Shown here piece after piece: positions 9,117 to 61,009 of a stretch of DNA of 64,000 nt. Every line of letters starts with the position of its first letter. The stretch's first letter is position 1. The translations under genes were made by a program, and so were the position numbers. The notes beneath the pieces were generated by a model. The model worked only from the letters and a program-made list of their open reading frames with translations, made no database searches and was not told the origin of the DNA. Source of the stretch: Streptosporangium album (lineage in GTDB: Bacteria > Actinomycetota > Actinomycetes > Streptosporangiales > Streptosporangiaceae); the NCBI RefSeq assembly GCF_014203795.1, contig NZ_JACHJU010000003.1, positions 1-64,000 on the forward strand, read 5' to 3'.

Positions 9117-9872
9117 ATGAAGAACAAGCCGGCGTATGCCCTCGGCTCCGTCGACAACGTGCTGCTCCTGCTGCACATGCTGCGCGACCAGGGGAAGCTC
9201 AAGGTCACCGATGTCGCCAGAGAGCTGGGCATCGCCCGGTCCACCGCCCACCGGTTGCTCGCCATGCTGGTCTACCGGGACTTCGCCGTACAGGACGACA
9301 ACCACATCTACCTTCCGGGGCCGTTCCTGTCCTCGGGAGGGGGCGACATCGGGGGCTCCACCCTCCGGAAGCTGCGCGAGCTCGCCCGGCCGCACATGGA
9401 GACGCTGTGCGGAAGGGTTCACGAGACCGTCAACCTCATGGTCCGCGTGGGCACGGAGGTCCGTTTCCTGTCCAGCGTGGAGTCGTCGCAGATCCTCCAT
9501 GTCGGCGACCGGCGGGGCACGATCCTGCCCGCCCATCGGGCGTCCGGCGGCAAGGTCCTGCTCGCCGAACTGTCCGACGAGCGGATCCGGGAGCTGTACC
9601 CGGACCTTCCGGACGCCGAACGGGCCGGGCTGACGCGTGACCTCGGCGACATCCGCGCCCGCGGATACGGCCTCAACATCGAGGAGACCGAGCAGGGGGT
9701 GTCGGCGATCGGCGCCGCCGTGCACAACAGGCAGGGTGGCGCGATCGCCGCGCTGTCGATCGCGATCCCCTCCGCCAGGTTCGGTCCCGACCGGATCGGC
9801 CCCTTCGCCCGCGAGCTCCACCGCGCCATCCTGGAGACCGAGCACACCCTCGCGGACCTCCCCGATCTCTGA
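9117..9872 (+). CDS. IclR-family regulator of gentisate genes
   Basis: About 251 residues. The winged HTH (SVDNVLLLLHMLRDQGKLKVTDVARELGIARSTAHRLLAMLVYRDF) is followed by the IclR effector domain, with motifs GGKVLLAELSDERI and GYGLNIEETEQGVSAIGAAV. The ATG at 9117 gives the family N-terminus. There is no Shine-Dalgarno sequence before it, and the palindromes lie immediately upstream, so translation may be leaderless. Divergent orientation to the gentisate dioxygenase gene identifies the target operon. Whether it activates or represses cannot be seen. Confidence 0.88.
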   Translation: MKNKPAYALGSVDNVLLLLHMLRDQGKLKVTDVARELGIARSTAHRLLAMLVYRDFAVQDDNHIYLPGPFLSSGGGDIGGSTLRKLRELARPHMETLCGRVHETVNLMVRVGTEVRFLSSVESSQILHVGDRRGTILPAHRASGGKVLLAELSDERIRELYPDLPDAERAGLTRDLGDIRARGYGLNIEETEQGVSAIGAAVHNRQGGAIAALSIAIPSARFGPDRIGPFARELHRAILETEHTLADLPDL

Positions 9873-55842: not shown

Positions 55843-56382
55843 ATGTCGGAACCGATGCACCACATGGATCACGCCGGACACGTAGGGCACCATGGCCATG
55901 ATCCACATGCGCAGGCGGGTCACTCTCACGCCGGTCACTCCGGGAAGGTGACGTGGCGGACGGCCGCGTCGGCGACCCTGCACTGCCTCACCGGTTGCGC
56001 CATCGGCGAGGTGCTCGGCATGGTGATCGGAACGACCCTGGGCTGGTCGAACGGGCCGACCGTCGTCCTGGCCATCGTCCTGGCCTTCTTCTTCGGTTAC
56101 GCACTCACCACCGTGGGTCTGCGGAAGGCCGATCTCGGCTGGCGCGAGGTCGTACGGCTGGCGCTCGCCGCCGACACCGTGTCGATCATCGTCATGGAGA
56201 TCATCGACAACGGCGTGATGCTCGTCATCCCGGGCGCCATGGACGCCGGGCTCGCCTCCGGCCTGTTCTGGGGTGCTCTCGCGTTCGCCCTGCTGGTGGC
56301 CTTCCTCATCACTACCCCGATCAACAAGTGGATCATCGGCAAGGGCAAGGGGCACGCGGTGGTTCACGCCTACCACCACTGA
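55843..56382 (+). CDS. DUF4396 membrane protein with His-rich N-terminus
   Basis: A 179-residue protein. The first 34 residues contain twelve His and two Met (HHMDHAGHVGHHGHDPHAQ and onward), a probable Cu/Ni/Zn-binding arm. A DUF4396 core of about four helices follows: TLHCLTGCAIGEVLGMVIGTTLG, TVVLAIVLAFFFGYALTTVGL, IIVMEIIDNGVMLVIPGAM and FWGALAFALLVAFLITTPINKWIIGKGK. It carries HCLTGCAIGE and a conserved ME-x2-DN motif. The tail again has His (HAVVHAYHH). Both a CsoR-type and a BlaI-type dyad lie upstream. Confidence 0.82.
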   Translation: MSEPMHHMDHAGHVGHHGHDPHAQAGHSHAGHSGKVTWRTAASATLHCLTGCAIGEVLGMVIGTTLGWSNGPTVVLAIVLAFFFGYALTTVGLRKADLGWREVVRLALAADTVSIIVMEIIDNGVMLVIPGAMDAGLASGLFWGALAFALLVAFLITTPINKWIIGKGKGHAVVHAYHH

Positions 56383-56439: not shown

Positions 56440-56560
56440 GAGCCGCACCCGGCGGGGCGTGCAGCAGCCTTGGTGGACTTGATCCTGGAGGACGGCCACG
56501 ACGCGGTCACGGTCACCGGCCTGATCCACCGCGCCGACGTCGGCCGCTCGGCCTCCTACT
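56440..56560 (+). pseudogene. TetR-family regulator, N-terminal HTH remnant
   Basis: The frame gives RAALVDLILEDGHDAVTVTG then LIHRADVGRSASYS, the typical start of a TetR HTH (x-VTV-x2-I-x-RADVGRS-x-Y). Similarity stops at 56560, where sequence belonging to a minus-strand transporter fragment begins. No start codon is conserved. Confidence 0.6.
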
Positions 56561-56564
56561 CCCC

Positions 56565-56845
56565 GTGCCGGTGCCGCCGCCGGGAGCGGCGGCGGCCAGC
56601 ACGATCCCGTAGGCGAGCGGCCCGTCCAGTCCCAGCCCGTTCACCAGTGCCACCGCGACAGCCGGTACGATCACGATGTCCGCCGCTGCGGCCGCTACCA
56701 GCGCCCGCGGACGGCGCCGCAGGACGGTGAACCCCTCCAGGGTGAGCGCGGTACCGATGGTGAGCATGGTCGCCACCAGGAGCAGGACGAGCCCTAATGT
56801 GACCGGTGCGGAGCCCATGTCACAGGCCGTAGGCGGACAGGACAC
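56565..56845 (-). pseudogene. Bile-acid:sodium-symporter-like transporter, N-terminal fragment
   Basis: From an ATG at 56845 (minus): GSAPVTLGLVLLLVATMLTIGTALTLEGFTVLRRRPRALVAAAAADIVIVPAVAVALVNGLGLDGPLAYGIVLAAAAPGG. This matches the first three helices of BASS/SBF-type transporters, including the AAAPGG motif. It breaks off near 56565 at the junction with the TetR fragment. Confidence 0.6.
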
Positions 56846-56995
56846 CGCCTGCGGCTGAGTTCCGGCCGGCGGGGCGAGCCATACCGCGGGGCGGATGGCG
56901 CCGCCGGAATCCAGTTCGGCCCACGGGGCGCCTCCGGCGTTCCGGCATTCGCTTGATTTGACATCTCTCTAATCAGCGAGGCACGCTACCTACTA

Positions 56996-57013
56996 CTTAG
57001 ATAATCTTCTAAG
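56996..57013. promoter_or_regulatory. ArsR/SmtB-type operator, site 1
   Basis: CTTAGA-N6-TCTAAG (6-bp perfect dyad) lies 14 bp ahead of the small Cys protein gene. It shares TTAGATA and the following T/C-rich arm with the sequence at 59548-59566, in front of the arsR-like gene. Confidence 0.6.
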
Positions 57014-57026
57014 CAAGAGGTGTGTG

Positions 57027-57164
57027 ATGCGTGCTCTGTTCCGCCGGTTCCGCTCCGCTACGGACGTCACCTTCGATGAGGTCCGCGGCGAGGCCTGTGA
57101 CACGAGCTGCCGCGTGAGCGCCGCCGTGGACCGCGCCCGCATCGCCACCCTGCTGTTTCGCTAA
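57027..57164 (+). CDS. 45-residue small protein with CDTSC motif
   Basis: ATG 57027 with AGAGG upstream encodes MRALFRRFRSATDVTF-DEVRGEACDTSCRVSAAVDR and a short tail to 57164. The N-terminus is strongly basic, and the CxxxC (CDTSC) could bind a metal or thiol. Similar tiny basic proteins with a CD-x2-C motif are common in actinomycetes. It is the first gene after the ArsR-type dyad and precedes the flavoprotein by 29 bp, so is probably co-transcribed with it. Confidence 0.6.
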   Translation: MRALFRRFRSATDVTFDEVRGEACDTSCRVSAAVDRARIATLLFR

Positions 57165-57193
57165 GCCGCGACGAAATCTCTGGAGAGATAATC

Positions 57194-58600
57194 ATGAGTG
57201 ACGGATGCTGCGGTCCCACGGGCCCCACGACAGTCGAGATCGAGCAGATCGCCTCGCACCCCGAGGTGAGTGCGTTGCCCGTGGTGGTGATCGGCGCGGG
57301 CCCGGCCGGGCTGGCCGCAGCCGCGCACCTGACCGAGCGTGGCCTGGACTTCGTGGTGGTCGAGGCCGGGCACCAGGTCGGCGCGTCGGTGGCGCAGTGG
57401 GGCCACGTGCGGGTCTTCAGCCCGTGGCGCTACAACATCGACGGTGCCGCCCGCCGCCTGCTGGAGGCCGACGGCTGGAGCGCCCCCGACGCCGATTGGC
57501 TGCCCACCGGCGCCGAACTGATCGGCGACTACCTCGCCCCGCTGGCCAAGCTGTTCGGTGACAAGGTCCGCCTGGGGGCGAAGGTGACGGCGATCAGCCG
57601 CCTCGGCCTCGACCGGGTCCGCACCACCGGCCGTGAGGAGGTCCCGTTCCTGCTGCGCCTGTCCGACGGCCAGGAACTCCAGGCGCGGGCGATCATCGAT
57701 GCCTCCGGTACCTACACCACCCCCAGCGTCCTGGGCGCCGACGGCCTGCCCGCCTACGGCGAAGAGCAGGCAGCCCGGTTCGTCGATCACGCGCTGCCCG
57801 ACGTCCTGGGGGCCGATCGCGAGGTCTACGCCGGCAAGCACACCCTCGTCATCGGCGCCGGACACTCGGCGGCCACCACCCTGCTTGCCTTGGCCGAGCT
57901 GGAGGACACGCAGATCACCTGGGCGGTCCGCGCCACCAATGCCGGCCGCACCTACGGCGGTGGCGGAGCGGACGCCCTCCCGGCTCGCGGTGCGATCGGC
58001 ACCCGGCTGCGGGCGCACGTCGAGTCCGGTCGCATCACCCTGGTCACCGGTTTCTACACTCACACCGTCACCGAGTCCGGCGGCCGGGTGAGCGTGGTCA
58101 GCCGTGACCCGTCCGGCGGCGGGCAGTCGGTGACCGCCGACCGGATCGTGGCCGCGACCGGCTACCGGCCTGATCACTCCATCGCCTCCGAGTTGCGCCT
58201 GGACCTGGATCCGATTCTCGGCTCCACCCGCGCCCTGGCACCGCTGATCGACCCCAACCAGCACTCCTGCGGCACCGTACCCGCTCACGGCGTCGACGAG
58301 CTCGCGCATCCCGAGAACGGTTACTACGCGGTCGGCGTCAAGAGCTACGGCCGCGCCCCGACGTTCCTGATGGCCACCGGATATGAGCAGGTCCGCTCGG
58401 TGGTCGCCGCCCTGGCCGGGGACTGGGAGGCGGCCCGTGACGTCCAGCTCGACCTGCCCGAGACCGGCGTGTGCTCCTCCAACCTGGCCGAAGCTCAGGA
58501 ACAGCGCCTCGGCCTGGCCACCGGCATCAGCGGCGGCCTGCTGGCCACCCCGCTTCCCCTGGTCACCGTCGCCTCCGACGGTGGCGGCTGCTGCGGCTGA
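57194..58600 (+). CDS. FAD/NAD(P)-binding flavoprotein with Cys-Cys at both termini
   Basis: A 468-residue flavoprotein. The N-terminus is SDGCCGPTG (Cys5-Cys6) and the C-terminus is DGGGCCG (Cys466-Cys467). FAD site: VVVIGAGPAGLAAAAHLTERG (glycines 34-39). Second dinucleotide site: KHTLVIGAGHSAATTLLAL. The ATGY motif is IVAATGYRPD. It resembles flavin-containing monooxygenase/thioredoxin-reductase-like enzymes found in arsenic clusters. The vicinal Cys pairs are unusual and could bind As(III) or relay electrons. It is co-directional with the arsR-like and second FMO genes. The reaction is unknown. Confidence 0.82.
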   Translation: MSDGCCGPTGPTTVEIEQIASHPEVSALPVVVIGAGPAGLAAAAHLTERGLDFVVVEAGHQVGASVAQWGHVRVFSPWRYNIDGAARRLLEADGWSAPDADWLPTGAELIGDYLAPLAKLFGDKVRLGAKVTAISRLGLDRVRTTGREEVPFLLRLSDGQELQARAIIDASGTYTTPSVLGADGLPAYGEEQAARFVDHALPDVLGADREVYAGKHTLVIGAGHSAATTLLALAELEDTQITWAVRATNAGRTYGGGGADALPARGAIGTRLRAHVESGRITLVTGFYTHTVTESGGRVSVVSRDPSGGGQSVTADRIVAATGYRPDHSIASELRLDLDPILGSTRALAPLIDPNQHSCGTVPAHGVDELAHPENGYYAVGVKSYGRAPTFLMATGYEQVRSVVAALAGDWEAARDVQLDLPETGVCSSNLAEAQEQRLGLATGISGGLLATPLPLVTVASDGGGCCG

Positions 58601-58614
58601 GAAAGGGAACCGAC

Positions 58615-58890
58615 ATGTCAGAGGGACACCCCACCGCGGCACAGAAAGAGGCCCTGCGCCTCATCTGCGACCATGGCCACCTGGACACCCACCAACTGGG
58701 CCGTCACCTGCTCAGCGCCCGACGATCGAGCACCAACCCGGGATTCGCCCCGGCGATCACCCGCATGGCCGGCACCCTGACCTGGCGCCTGAAAGCCCAA
58801 GGCTTCATCACCGACGCCGACACCGAGGGCGCCTGGAGGACCACGGCGGACGGCCGCGCCCTGATCTCCTGCGGCAGGACGCGCGAGTGA
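58615..58890 (+). CDS. Small HTH-like hypothetical protein
   Basis: A 91-residue protein (MSEGHPTAAQKEALRLICDHGHLD and onward). The first 80 residues read like a winged helix: a helix AAQKEALRLI, a turn, THQLGRHLLSARR, MAGTLTWRLKAQGFI and a wing TDADTEGAWRTTADGRALI. It may regulate or respond to DNA, but no family was recognised. It starts 14 bp after the flavoprotein, with GAAAGGG upstream, and overlaps the next gene (GTGA). Confidence 0.6.
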   Translation: MSEGHPTAAQKEALRLICDHGHLDTHQLGRHLLSARRSSTNPGFAPAITRMAGTLTWRLKAQGFITDADTEGAWRTTADGRALISCGRTRE

Positions 58891-59547
58891 ACTCCACCGC
58901 AGAGAGCGCCGCCCCTGCCACAGGAGGCGGCGCTCCGTCACGTTCCCCTCATGGCCGGCGGATCGTCGCCGCGCTGGCCGTCACCCAGACCATCGGCTAC
59001 GGCGTGCTCTACTACGCCTTCTCCGTCTTCCTCACCCCCATGGCCCGCGACCTGAATGCGAGCGGCACCCAGATCGCCGCCGCACTCACCGGCTCAATCC
59101 TGATCGCCGCGCTGCGCGCCCCGCTGGTCGGCCGTGATGGCGGTCCTGCTCATCACCTACCTCATCCACCTCGGGCACTCACCCGTCCTGGCCGCCACGC
59201 TGGCCGGGCTGCTGGGCGTGCTGTCGGTGACCGGACGCCTGCTCACCACCGGCCTGCAACGCCGTATGCCCGCCGCGCTCATCGCGGCGTCGATCTTCAC
59301 CCTCCAGGGCGTCGCCGCCGCGCTGCTGCCGCTGGCCGGGCGGACGGTGCCGGGCGCCATCGGCTGCGTGCTGGGATTCGGGCTCGGATTCGGCATCGCC
59401 TCCATCACCCTGCCGCATCTGCTGGTCGAGAGGTACGGCACGGCGGCGTATGCCTCGTTGTCGGGCCGCATCGCCGCCTTTTCCGTCACCGACAAGGCCT
59501 TGGCTCCGCTGGGAGCGGTCGCGCTGCTGGCCTACCATCGCGTATGA
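58887..59547 (+). pseudogene. MFS transporter with internal deletion
   Basis: The N-terminal part (GTG 58887) reads RRIVAALAVTQTIGYGVLYYAFSVFLTPMARDLNASGTQIAAALTGSILIAALRAPLVGR, helices 1-2 of a 12-helix MFS protein. At about 59130 the frame shifts, and sequence resumes far into the protein (AVLLITYLIHLGHSPVLAATLAGLLGVLSVTGRLL) to the end at 59547. Roughly 150 residues are missing. It overlaps the preceding stop, so it was once translationally coupled. Inactive as a transporter. Confidence 0.75.
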
Positions 59548-59566
59548 TTTAGATAGATTTCGAAGT
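59548..59566. promoter_or_regulatory. ArsR/SmtB-type operator, site 2
   Basis: TTTAGATAGATTTCGAAGT lies between the broken MFS gene and the arsR-like gene and shares TTAGATA with the dyad at 56996. TAAGGAG follows at 59566-59572. Autoregulation is likely. Confidence 0.55.
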
Positions 59567-59579
59567 AAGGAGTGCCGTC

Positions 59580-59927
59580 TTGACCGCCATCACCACCTCG
59601 TGCTGCGCGCCGATCGCGCGCGCGCCACTGAGCGAGCCCGACGCGGCCGAGCTGGCGGTACTGCTCAAGGCGGCCGCCGACCCGGTCAGGCTGCGCCTGC
59701 TGTCGATGATCGGCTCGCATGCCGGAGGTGAGGCGTGCGTGTGTGACCTGACCGCCGCCTTCGATCTGACCGCGCCGACCATCTCCCACCACCTGAAAGT
59801 GCTGCGCACCGCCGGGCTGATCGACAGCGAGCGGCGCGGCACCTGGGTCTACTACTGGATTGTCCCGGCCGCCGTCGCCCGGCTGGGCGCGCTGTTCACC
59901 CCGCTGGCCGAGCCCTCGAGCGTGTGA
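59580..59927 (+). CDS. arsR: ArsR-family metalloregulator
   Basis: A 115-residue winged-helix repressor. It has N-terminal Cys8-Cys9 (TSCCAP), the helix-3 metal motif ACVCDLTAAF (Cys53, Cys55; ELCVCDL-type arsenite sensor), the HTH LTAPTISHHLKVLRTAGLI and the wing SERRGTWVYYWI. The CxC in helix 3 is the classical As(III)/Sb(III) site; the extra Cys pair may complete it. TTG start with AAGGAG upstream. The stop overlaps the next GTG. Confidence 0.9.
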   Translation: MTAITTSCCAPIARAPLSEPDAAELAVLLKAAADPVRLRLLSMIGSHAGGEACVCDLTAAFDLTAPTISHHLKVLRTAGLIDSERRGTWVYYWIVPAAVARLGALFTPLAEPSSV

Positions 59928-61009
59928 GCAGCTCCCCGACCGCCACCGCGCGGGCGGTCGACGTCCTGGTCATCGGTGGAGGGCAGGCCGGCCTGGCCGC
60001 CGGGTACCACCTGCGCCGCGCGGGAGCCGACTTCGCCGTCCTGGACGCGCAAGAACAGCCCGGTGGCGCGTGGCGGCACGCGTGGCCGTCCCTTCGCCTG
60101 TTCTCCCCCGCTCAGTACAGCTCGCTGCCCGGGTGGATGATGCCGCCCCCGCCGGCAGGCGGTTACCCCAGCGCCGCCGACACCGTCGCCTACCTGACCG
60201 ACTACGAACAGCGCTACCAGCTGCCCGTGATCCGGCCGGTGAGCGTGCGGGCCGTACGGCGCAGCGGCGCCTCCCTGCAGGTGGAGACCGACGCGGGCGT
60301 CTGGCGCGCCCGGATCGTGATCAGCGCGACGGGCGCCTGGTGGCGCCCCTACGTGCCGTACTACCCCGGCATCGGTGACTTCGCCGGCCGGCAGTTGCAC
60401 ACCGCCGACTACGATGGCCCCGCCTCCTTCGACGGTCGGAACGTGGTGATCGTCGGTGGCGGCAACTCGGCCGCGCAGATCCTCGCCGAGCTCTCTGCCG
60501 TCGCGGCGACCACCTGGGTCACCTCGCGCCCGCCCCGGCTGCTGCCTGATGAGGTGGATGGTAGGGCGCTGTTCGATCTGGCGACCCGCCGCCACCAAGC
60601 CGCCCTGGTGGGCGAGAGCGCGACCGGGATCGGCGCCCTGGGCGACATCGTCTCTGTGCCCCCGGTCCGAGAAGCACGTGACCGAGGTGTGCTCAAGGCC
60701 GAGCCGATGTTCACCCGCATCACCTCTGAGGGCGTGGCGTGGAGCGACGGCACCACCTTGGCCTGCAACACCATCGTGTGGTGCACCGGATTCCGCCCTG
60801 CCCTCGGGCACCTGGCCCCGCTGCGCCTGCGCGGCGCGGACGGGCTCATCCCCACCGACGGCACCCGCGCCCTGGGCGAGCCTCGCCTGCACCTGCTCGG
60901 CTACGGCGACTGGACCGGACCCGCCTCGGCCACCCTGATCGGTGCCGCCCGCACGGCCCGCACGGCCGTGGCCGAGGTGATGCAGCAGTTGGTGGCTGAC
61001 GCCCGCTGA
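59924..61009 (+). CDS. ArsO-like flavin-dependent monooxygenase
   Basis: A 361-residue FMO. The FAD site is VLVIGGGQAGLAAGYHLRRAG, followed by EQPGGAWRHAWPSLRLFSPAQYSSLPGW, the NADP site is NVVIVGGGNSAAQILAEL, and the final ATG-like WCTGFRPALGHL is present. It closely follows the plan of ArsO proteins found with arsR in streptomycete arsenic clusters, where the function is still unsettled (possible oxidation of arsenicals). The GTG at 59924 overlaps the arsR stop. Regulation by ArsR is therefore direct. Confidence 0.87.
   Translation: MSSSPTATARAVDVLVIGGGQAGLAAGYHLRRAGADFAVLDAQEQPGGAWRHAWPSLRLFSPAQYSSLPGWMMPPPPAGGYPSAADTVAYLTDYEQRYQLPVIRPVSVRAVRRSGASLQVETDAGVWRARIVISATGAWWRPYVPYYPGIGDFAGRQLHTADYDGPASFDGRNVVIVGGGNSAAQILAELSAVAATTWVTSRPPRLLPDEVDGRALFDLATRRHQAALVGESATGIGALGDIVSVPPVREARDRGVLKAEPMFTRITSEGVAWSDGTTLACNTIVWCTGFRPALGHLAPLRLRGADGLIPTDGTRALGEPRLHLLGYGDWTGPASATLIGAARTARTAVAEVMQQLVADAR

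Follow-up and report, generated by a model that had tools for sequence, protein, structure and literature searches.

A flavoprotein with terminal cysteine pairs in an ArsR-associated gene unit of Streptosporangium album

RESULTS

Organization of the unit and sampling of relatives

The first 64,000 nucleotides of contig NZ_JACHJU010000003.1 of Streptosporangium album (GCF_014203795.1; positions 1–64,000, forward strand), referred to here as the window, contain at 57027–61009 a unit built around a flavoprotein with a cysteine pair near either end. Two operator-like sites are followed, all on the plus strand and in 5′ to 3′ order, by genes for a mini-protein, the flavoprotein, a 91-residue protein and a broken transporter of the major facilitator superfamily (MFS), and then by a third operator-like site and the genes for an ArsR repressor and an ArsO family flavin monooxygenase. 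The flavoprotein (57194–58600, 468 residues) is FAD- and NAD(P)-binding and of the Pyr_redox_3 type (Pfam), with two dinucleotide-binding motifs at residues 34 and 221, and its only cysteines are C5, C6, C359, C427, C466 and C467. The first-pass annotation of this DNA had correctly given the gene positions, the C5-C6 and C466-C467 pairs, the CDTSC motif of the mini-protein and both cysteine motifs of ArsR. Its label for the second flavoprotein, 'ArsO-like', proved too cautious: this protein (59924–61009, its gene overlapping arsR by 4 nt) scores 541.5 bits against NCBIfam NF040505, above the curated ArsO cut-off of 425. Neither C359 and C427 nor the broken MFS gene (58887–59547) had been mentioned.

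Scanning genome contigs with the flavoprotein returned at least 558 relatives, and the best 80 (61–84% identity, nearly all from Streptosporangiaceae and Micromonosporaceae) were kept. The plasmid collection held 140 matching records; among the matches listed with at least 80% query coverage, identity ranged from 42 to 78%, and Pseudomonadota and Bacillota were included. Loci are numbered with the prefix L. Our set of 99 proteins consists of the window protein and those of L006–L095 (91 in all) minus three, plus 11 annotated proteins (L096–L106), with starts taken by a simple rule or from existing annotation. Dropped were L061 and L075, whose frames overrun the usual family end, and L094, whose start is uncertain; one other tabulation leaves out L061, L075, L076 and L094. 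Alignment A2 omits L023, whose protein is the same as that of L022, and alignment A3 covers 17 of 22 proteins. The 42 near loci are the window, L006–L044, L046 and L093. In a survey of the class covering 296 genomes from 115 genera, 88 genomes and 32 genera have a flavoprotein match at E ≤ 1e-60, and the best-scoring of these 88 genomes supplied 29 class-wide loci besides the window, each of 3.5–4.5 kb (one, L136, duplicates L036). We also inspected 21 plasmid regions, 19 of them annotated (L093 and L094 have no usable annotation), in which relatives of the flavoprotein are mostly labelled 'FAD-dependent oxidoreductase' or 'NAD(P)-binding domain-containing protein'.

A cysteine pair in the C-terminal tail is a hallmark of the family

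C359 and C427 are invariant, being present in all 99 proteins and in 30 of 30 members of the class-wide set (the 29 best loci and the window). Downstream of C427, at least one CC or CxC occurs in 98 of the 99, the exception being a Staphylococcus plasmid copy (L101), and a tail pair is likewise found at 28 of 29 class-wide loci. A pair lies within the last 12 residues at 77 of 80 flavoprotein loci, compared to none of 196 products of five neighboring gene families (ArsO, 0/42; OX flavoproteins, 0/43; Acr3, 0/21; ArsC, 0/47; GNAT, 0/43). MFS (0/50) and ArsR (0/76) proteins also lack a pair there, and 10 and 12 of them, respectively, have one in the last 60 residues. The C-terminal arm is thus a real family hallmark. 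Among the 99 proteins, the tail varies in length and sequence, as do the number and place of its cysteine pairs. With respect to the tail as a mobile module, a tblastn search with one Ensifer tail retrieved only two Ensifer records, a result weakened by the low-complexity filter.

The N-terminal pair, by contrast, is a lineage feature. It is present in 40 of 99 proteins and in 36 of 42 rows of the window's clade; beyond that clade, an N-terminal CC is seen in Amorphoplanes, Roseomonas, Cytobacillus and Paenibacillus. On a quick tree with several long branches, the pair changes state nine times, and at least six of these changes are forced by supported branches. When pairs are classed as N-terminal, mid-tail or C-end (last 12 residues), the 99 proteins divide into 41 with mid plus C-end pairs, 38 with N plus C-end, 9 with C-end only, 8 with mid only, and one each with all three, with N plus mid and with none. 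These raw counts suggest a striking mutual exclusion of N-terminal and mid-tail pairs; however, the tree contains only six independent pairs (sign test, P = 1), and hence we treat the pattern as a difference between clades rather than as compensation. The richest N-terminal extension among the rows listed belongs to Amorphoplanes nipponensis (L085, 5827–6100), with four CC pairs (eight cysteines).

The flavoprotein fits neither of two textbook classes by motif

Class B flavin monooxygenases of the FMO/BVMO type carry the signature FxGxxxHx(3-4)[FWY]. This motif occurs in the ArsO of the window (FAGRQLHTADY), in the ArsO proteins of L086 and L096 and in the OX protein of L086; it is found in 0 of the 99 flavoproteins, which makes the label 'monooxygenase' doubtful for them. 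A core CxxC or CxxxxC, the signature of disulfide oxidoreductases and thioredoxin reductase, is likewise found in 0 of 99. Judged by motif, then, the flavoprotein belongs neither with textbook class B monooxygenases nor with textbook disulfide oxidoreductases. It is not ArsO either, scoring 55.8 bits against NF040505 (cut-off, 425). Searches of the open-licence literature, broader in aim, turned up no paper on the cysteine tails of this family.

Relatives of the flavoprotein lie among arsenic resistance genes

An arsenic role of the flavoprotein unit is near certain, judging from its neighborhood. In 18 of the 19 annotated plasmid regions, spanning Actinomycetota, Pseudomonadota and Bacillota, there is a gene annotated ArsR/SmtB, ArsC, Acr3, ArsH, arsK or ArsN1. 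The order arsR–flavoprotein–MFS/arsK is annotated in Shinella, Ensifer, Hydrogenophaga, Rhizobium, Nitrobacter and Afipia, the gene 3′ of the flavoprotein being arsK itself in Ensifer and Rhizobium. ArsC and/or Acr3 adjoin the flavoprotein in Paenarthrobacter and Dietzia, and the ars island of the Streptomyces FR-008 plasmid places it near acr3, arsO, arsC and trxB. Genes annotated ArsN1 are nearby in Pseudomonas, Cytobacillus, Paenibacillus and Niallia. In Ensifer and Nitrobacter, the flavoprotein gene lies 3–4 kb from one annotated 'arsenate reductase (azurin) large subunit', which we take to be the arsenite oxidase AioA. The weakest arsenic contexts are those of Staphylococcus arlettae and Roseomonas. 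On the S. arlettae plasmid pSA-01 (L101, 4827–8715), a single small gene separates the flavoprotein gene from merR/merA downstream, and an ArsR lies beyond; in Roseomonas (L102), the neighbors of the flavoprotein gene are a PadR regulator, an MFS protein and chromate and nickel transporters.

Within ∼1.5 kb on each side of the class-wide loci, ArsR is found at 23 of 29, an ArsN1-like gene at 13, MFS at 12, ArsC at 10 and Acr3 at 2. Counting the window, 38 of the 42 near loci encode, 3′ of the flavoprotein and on the same strand, an ArsR with ≥77% identity to that of the window, and an ArsO match follows ArsR in 18 of 41 relatives, in two of them in pieces. An ArsN1-like GNAT occurs at 30 of 34 Micromonospora loci.

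In S. album itself, Acr3, ArsC and a second partial ArsC match lie ∼75–78 kb from the unit. They are part of a second ars locus (L117, 3966–8370; contig C3, ∼132–136 kb), in which what looks by eye like the C-terminal part of ArsM shares one open frame with an ArsN1-like GNAT and is followed by ArsC matches, ArsR and Acr3.

An operator-like motif precedes both operons

The window's ArsR (59580–59927) carries an N-terminal CC (C8-C9) in addition to a CVC (C53-V-C55). A single PDB entry matches it at E ≤ 1e-10, namely 6j0e, titled arsenic responsive repressor ArsR, presumably the CgArsR of Corynebacterium glutamicum; C8-C9 align with C15-C16 of that structure. CgArsR is described as binding As(III) through Cys15, Cys16 and the Cys55 of the other subunit (PMC4287715). 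The window protein thus has the N-terminal CC in common with CgArsR, whereas Gly occupies the position that aligns with the third ligand, and the window protein's Cys53 and Cys55 lie 4 and 6 residues further on within the additional CVC. Against the family of Rv2640c-type ArsR (NF041413), it scores 104.4 bits, below the cut-off of 155. The CVC arrangement is that of the E. coli type of ArsR.

We derived the motif TTHGA-N6-TCDAA from promoters of the flavoprotein together with the ArsR promoter of the window. Allowing up to one mismatch, the window contains three matches, all exact and all in the unit. The first (TTTGACATCTCTCTAA, 56957–56972, +) overlaps a −35-like hexamer, TTGACA, and the second (TTAGATAATCTTCTAA, 56997–57012, +) lies 40 nt 3′ of it, both before the mini-protein; the third (TTAGATAGATTTCGAA, 59549–59564, +) precedes arsR. 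One operator-like motif therefore precedes both operons of the unit. The count in itself is not significant (3 versus 1.91 expected; 29 of 100 shuffles as high), and hence the case for the motif rests on position and on the relatives. With the same tolerance, each of the 42 near loci, the window among them, has the motif in the 300 nt preceding the flavoprotein gene, at a density of 8.97 per kb versus 0.19 per kb elsewhere, a partly circular comparison. Less circular is the finding that an exact site lies 29–58 nt 5′ of the ArsR match at all 38 loci with a near-identical ArsR. A general search for upstream inverted repeats gave a small excess (mean of 5.56 versus 4.69 in shuffled sequences). 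The motif is a plausible binding site for this ArsR.

The transporter gene is broken in the window and intact in many relatives

The MFS gene of the window (58887–59547, +) has suffered an internal deletion. It matches residues 13–112 and 279–411 of the 441-residue stop-to-stop frame of L008 in two different frames, and the two DNA blocks are offset by ∼508 nt against L008. Among the 42 near loci, a match covering at least L008 residues 62–441 is present in 28, fragments only in 5 (window included) and none in 9 (for L011, L016 and L019, the state was judged by a single full-length tblastn match). A near-identical ArsR is still present at 10 of the 14 loci without a full MFS. The first-pass annotation had seen no intact ArsB/Acr3 pump here, but the unit is not pump-free by design.

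The window encodes, 5′ of the unit, a DUF4396 protein with a His-rich start (55843–56382); in Nonomuraea indica (L030, 5242–5808), a 66% identical match lies immediately 5′ of the flavoprotein. A short open reading frame on the minus strand (56513–56845) resembles, by eye, the N-terminal part of a symporter of the bile-acid/Acr3 type and is possibly the remnant of a pump.

Small cysteine-bearing proteins accompany the flavoprotein

The mini-protein (57027–57164, +; 45 residues, with CDTSC as its CDxxC) is encoded 29 nt upstream of the flavoprotein gene. In a search limited to ATG starts, the mini-gene was found 5′ of the flavoprotein at no fewer than 18 of 42 near loci, an unrelated frame in L033 being excluded, with gaps of 24–48 nt in relatives. 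All 17 aligned sequences have C24, D25 and C28. Matches at E ≤ 0.01 occur in 15 of 296 class genomes. Seven of these reach E ≤ 1e-5; they belong to the window's family (window included), and in all of them the mini-protein precedes the flavoprotein match by ≤250 nt, with both on one strand. The best matches of the other eight are weak (E 3.3e-5 to 0.0096) and, on the basis of E value, were taken as chance. The ratio pN/pS is 0.81 (136 pairs, 105 with pN < pS, uncorrected), weak evidence of selection. A chance open reading frame is ruled out by conservation and position; a regulatory leader peptide was also considered.

For the 91-residue protein (58615–58890, +), C18 and C86 are invariant in the 17 sequences aligned of 22 with a tblastn match (window counted). 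The first-pass annotation had called it winged-helix-like, a description not borne out by Pfam (no match up to E 0.1) or NCBIfam (none up to E 0.01).

Ten near relatives encode, apart from the flavoprotein, a peptide of 60–97 residues with 6–8 cysteines and the pattern GGFIGDLxEAFxPPxAGGCCG...CCG...GCCG, ending in GCCG like the flavoprotein (L009, 10546–10836, +; L012, L016, L017, L019 (−), L020, L021, L023, L024 and L093). In 9 of the 10, the promoter before this CCG peptide has the triple motif spacing of 16 and 40 nt seen at the flavoprotein. In L023, the peptide gene is followed by one for an M28 peptidase (Pfam); L014 likewise has an M28 peptidase gene downstream of such a site. S. album has an intact copy ∼79 kb from the unit (L117, gene start at 9478, −), without the operator, in the company of Acr3, ArsC, the second partial ArsC match, ArsR, the ArsN1-like gene and a shortened M28-like frame. 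No Pfam family scored above its cut-off for the three CCG peptides scanned, and no plasmid record was found with that of L009, a negative weakened by the low-complexity filter. Possibly, the peptide is a metalloid carrier.

DISCUSSION

A probable metalloid detoxification unit

On balance, we lean towards the view that the unit is an ArsR-controlled system of metalloid detoxification, in which the flavoprotein is a probable NAD(P)H flavoenzyme of the ArsV type acting on trivalent arsenicals or antimonials, with thiol arms feeding C359 and C427. Here, the enzyme would change the oxidation state of its substrate, most likely from trivalent to pentavalent with NADPH and oxygen. The cysteine pairs, on ends that are probably flexible, would capture the trivalent substrate, which is thiophilic, and hand it on to C359 and C427 in the core, to be held near the flavin; these two cysteines, both invariant, are the prime candidates as ligands of a trivalent metalloid. 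Both promoters would be kept repressed by ArsR, itself bearing an N-terminal cysteine pair, as long as no metalloid is present. Export of the product would normally fall to the neighboring MFS pump; in S. album, where that gene is broken, another exporter would presumably serve.

The first-pass annotation had proposed a flavin-based metalloid redox system with capture arms of paired cysteines. Its observations are confirmed and its interpretation is partly supported. The redox unit is backed by the near-identical ArsR at 38 of 42 near loci and the ars-type genes in 18 of 19 annotated plasmid regions. As for the arms, the annotation itself had named homologues that lack the pairs in identical contexts as evidence to the contrary. 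Such homologues are found for the N-terminal arm, since that pair is present in 40 of 99 and is not a family trait; conservation of the C-terminal pair (98/99) is supported. The direction of the reaction and the thiol relay are what we infer.

Several observations weigh against this reading. None of the best 25 of 78 matched NCBIfam families reaches its cut-off for the flavoprotein, and the FMO-type motif is missing from all 99 relatives. Two copies, L101 and L142, have no tail pair, and 59 of 99 have no N-terminal arm. Finally, the stretch inspected in Roseomonas L102, the sole exception among the 19 annotated plasmid regions, is devoid of ars genes.

Other explanations of the cysteine pairs and the substrate

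Alternatively, the C-terminal pair could be a redox-active dithiol that accepts flavin electrons and donates them to a partner, for which ArsC, the mini-protein, a thiol and a pentavalent arsenical are candidates. In that case, the enzyme would be a reductase; high-molecular-weight thioredoxin reductases are the comparison for such a C-terminal electron shuttle. The best PDB match of the flavoprotein profile is indeed 7a76, named thioredoxin reductase, with no single stretch significant alone, and there is a weak match to a YpdA disulfide-reductase model (52.4 bits, with a cut-off of 339.9). GCCG, GCCGS or GCCS forms the end of many tails, ArsC is near 10 of 29 class-wide loci, and the mini-protein offers a CDxxC. 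Yet without a core CxxC or CxxxxC (0/99), the usual relay from flavin to dithiol is missing, and the variable length of the tails and the variable number and place of their pairs are more easily reconciled with ligand capture than with a fixed redox relay. We consider this explanation unlikely.

Also improbable, to our minds, is that the flavoprotein really acts on an organoarsenical antibiotic, be it methylarsenite or arsinothricin in a trivalent form, as the antibiotic-inactivating partner of an ArsN1-type acetyltransferase. ArsN1 is described as acetylating arsinothricin (PMC6465285), and the annotated ArsN1 genes of four plasmids, together with the ArsN1-like GNATs at 13 of 29 class-wide and 30 of 34 Micromonospora loci, speak for such a partnership. 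However, there is no ArsN1-like gene at the window's unit, the copy in this genome being ∼75 kb away; the five actinobacterial GNATs scanned score 112–134 bits, under the ArsN1a cut-off of 170; and the arsinothricin described in the same source is pentavalent (PMC6465285).

Least probable is that the pairs are a mere metalloid sink or stability tag, unused in catalysis: gain and loss of the N-terminal pair (at least six changes) and the separate CCG-module peptide of the window genome and ten near relatives, in which no enzyme domain was found, would suit such a role, but the tail pair persists in 98 of 99 proteins from three phyla, with tails of widely differing length and sequence.

Comparison with known systems

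Of the known arsenic flavoenzymes, ArsV offers the closest parallel to the detoxification enzyme that we favor. It is described as the methylarsenite oxidase of Paracoccus sp. SY, a flavin monooxygenase (PMC10080717, PMC11719878), and it is listed with ArsW among organoarsenical resistance genes (PMC9144182). ArsW is reported to extrude methylarsenate, and ArsK to be a methylarsenite efflux gene of Ensifer adhaerens ST2 (PMC10080717). The likeness is one of description and operon context: ArsV too is a flavoenzyme of arsenic resistance, and relatives of our flavoprotein lie in arsR–flavoprotein–MFS/arsK units, some of them 3–4 kb from the aio large subunit. The gene arsV was reportedly discovered close to aioA, an arrangement that the Ensifer and Nitrobacter loci would match. 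An ars operon with an MFS export partner, as for ArsV, occurs in annotated plasmids and at 28 of 42 near loci, the partner being broken in the window. We regard membership of the flavoprotein in the ArsV family as likely.

The MFS partner resembles ArsK (NF033733) in that the intact protein of L008 matches this family nearly end to end. It differs in that the L008 (185.8 bits) and L086 proteins fall below the cut-off of 400, as does the C-terminal piece encoded by the broken window gene (27.6 bits). With ArsO, the flavoprotein shares the broad FAD/NAD(P) fold (Pyr_redox_3) and operons. It lacks, however, the FMO motif of ArsO, which in turn lacks cysteine tails (a pair in the last 60 residues in 0 of 42).

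Mercuric reductase (MerA) offers an analogue of the proposed arms. In that enzyme, C-terminal cysteines and the N-terminal metal-binding domain NmerA are described as delivering metal to active-site cysteines, which form a CxxxxC (PMC4500099). The flavoprotein is alike in its C-terminal cysteines, with a pair in the last 12 residues at 77 of 80 loci. It is unlike MerA in having no core CxxxxC (0/99) and no MerA among the PDB matches listed, and its arms are short tails rather than an NmerA domain. By analogy, then, the arms may work like those of MerA without the flavoprotein being a member of that family.

A bolder and decidedly tentative proposal would make the flavoprotein the metalloid counterpart of MerA. 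It would represent a flavoenzyme class apart from both FMO-type monooxygenases and disulfide reductases, in which interchangeable arms with cysteine pairs supply two invariant thiols of the core. In the Streptosporangiaceae relatives, co-regulated cysteine modules would be added, namely the CDxxC mini-protein, the two-cysteine 91-residue protein, the CC-bearing ArsR and the CCG peptide, carrying metalloid between them. The family is common (88 of 296 class genomes), yet none of those best 25 NCBIfam families accepts the window protein. This protein, with six cysteines, makes a clean test case, as each pair can be removed with the other cysteines untouched. If the arms work as proposed, this would be a second flavoenzyme family with the capture-arm design of MerA, serving arsenic or antimony rather than mercury.

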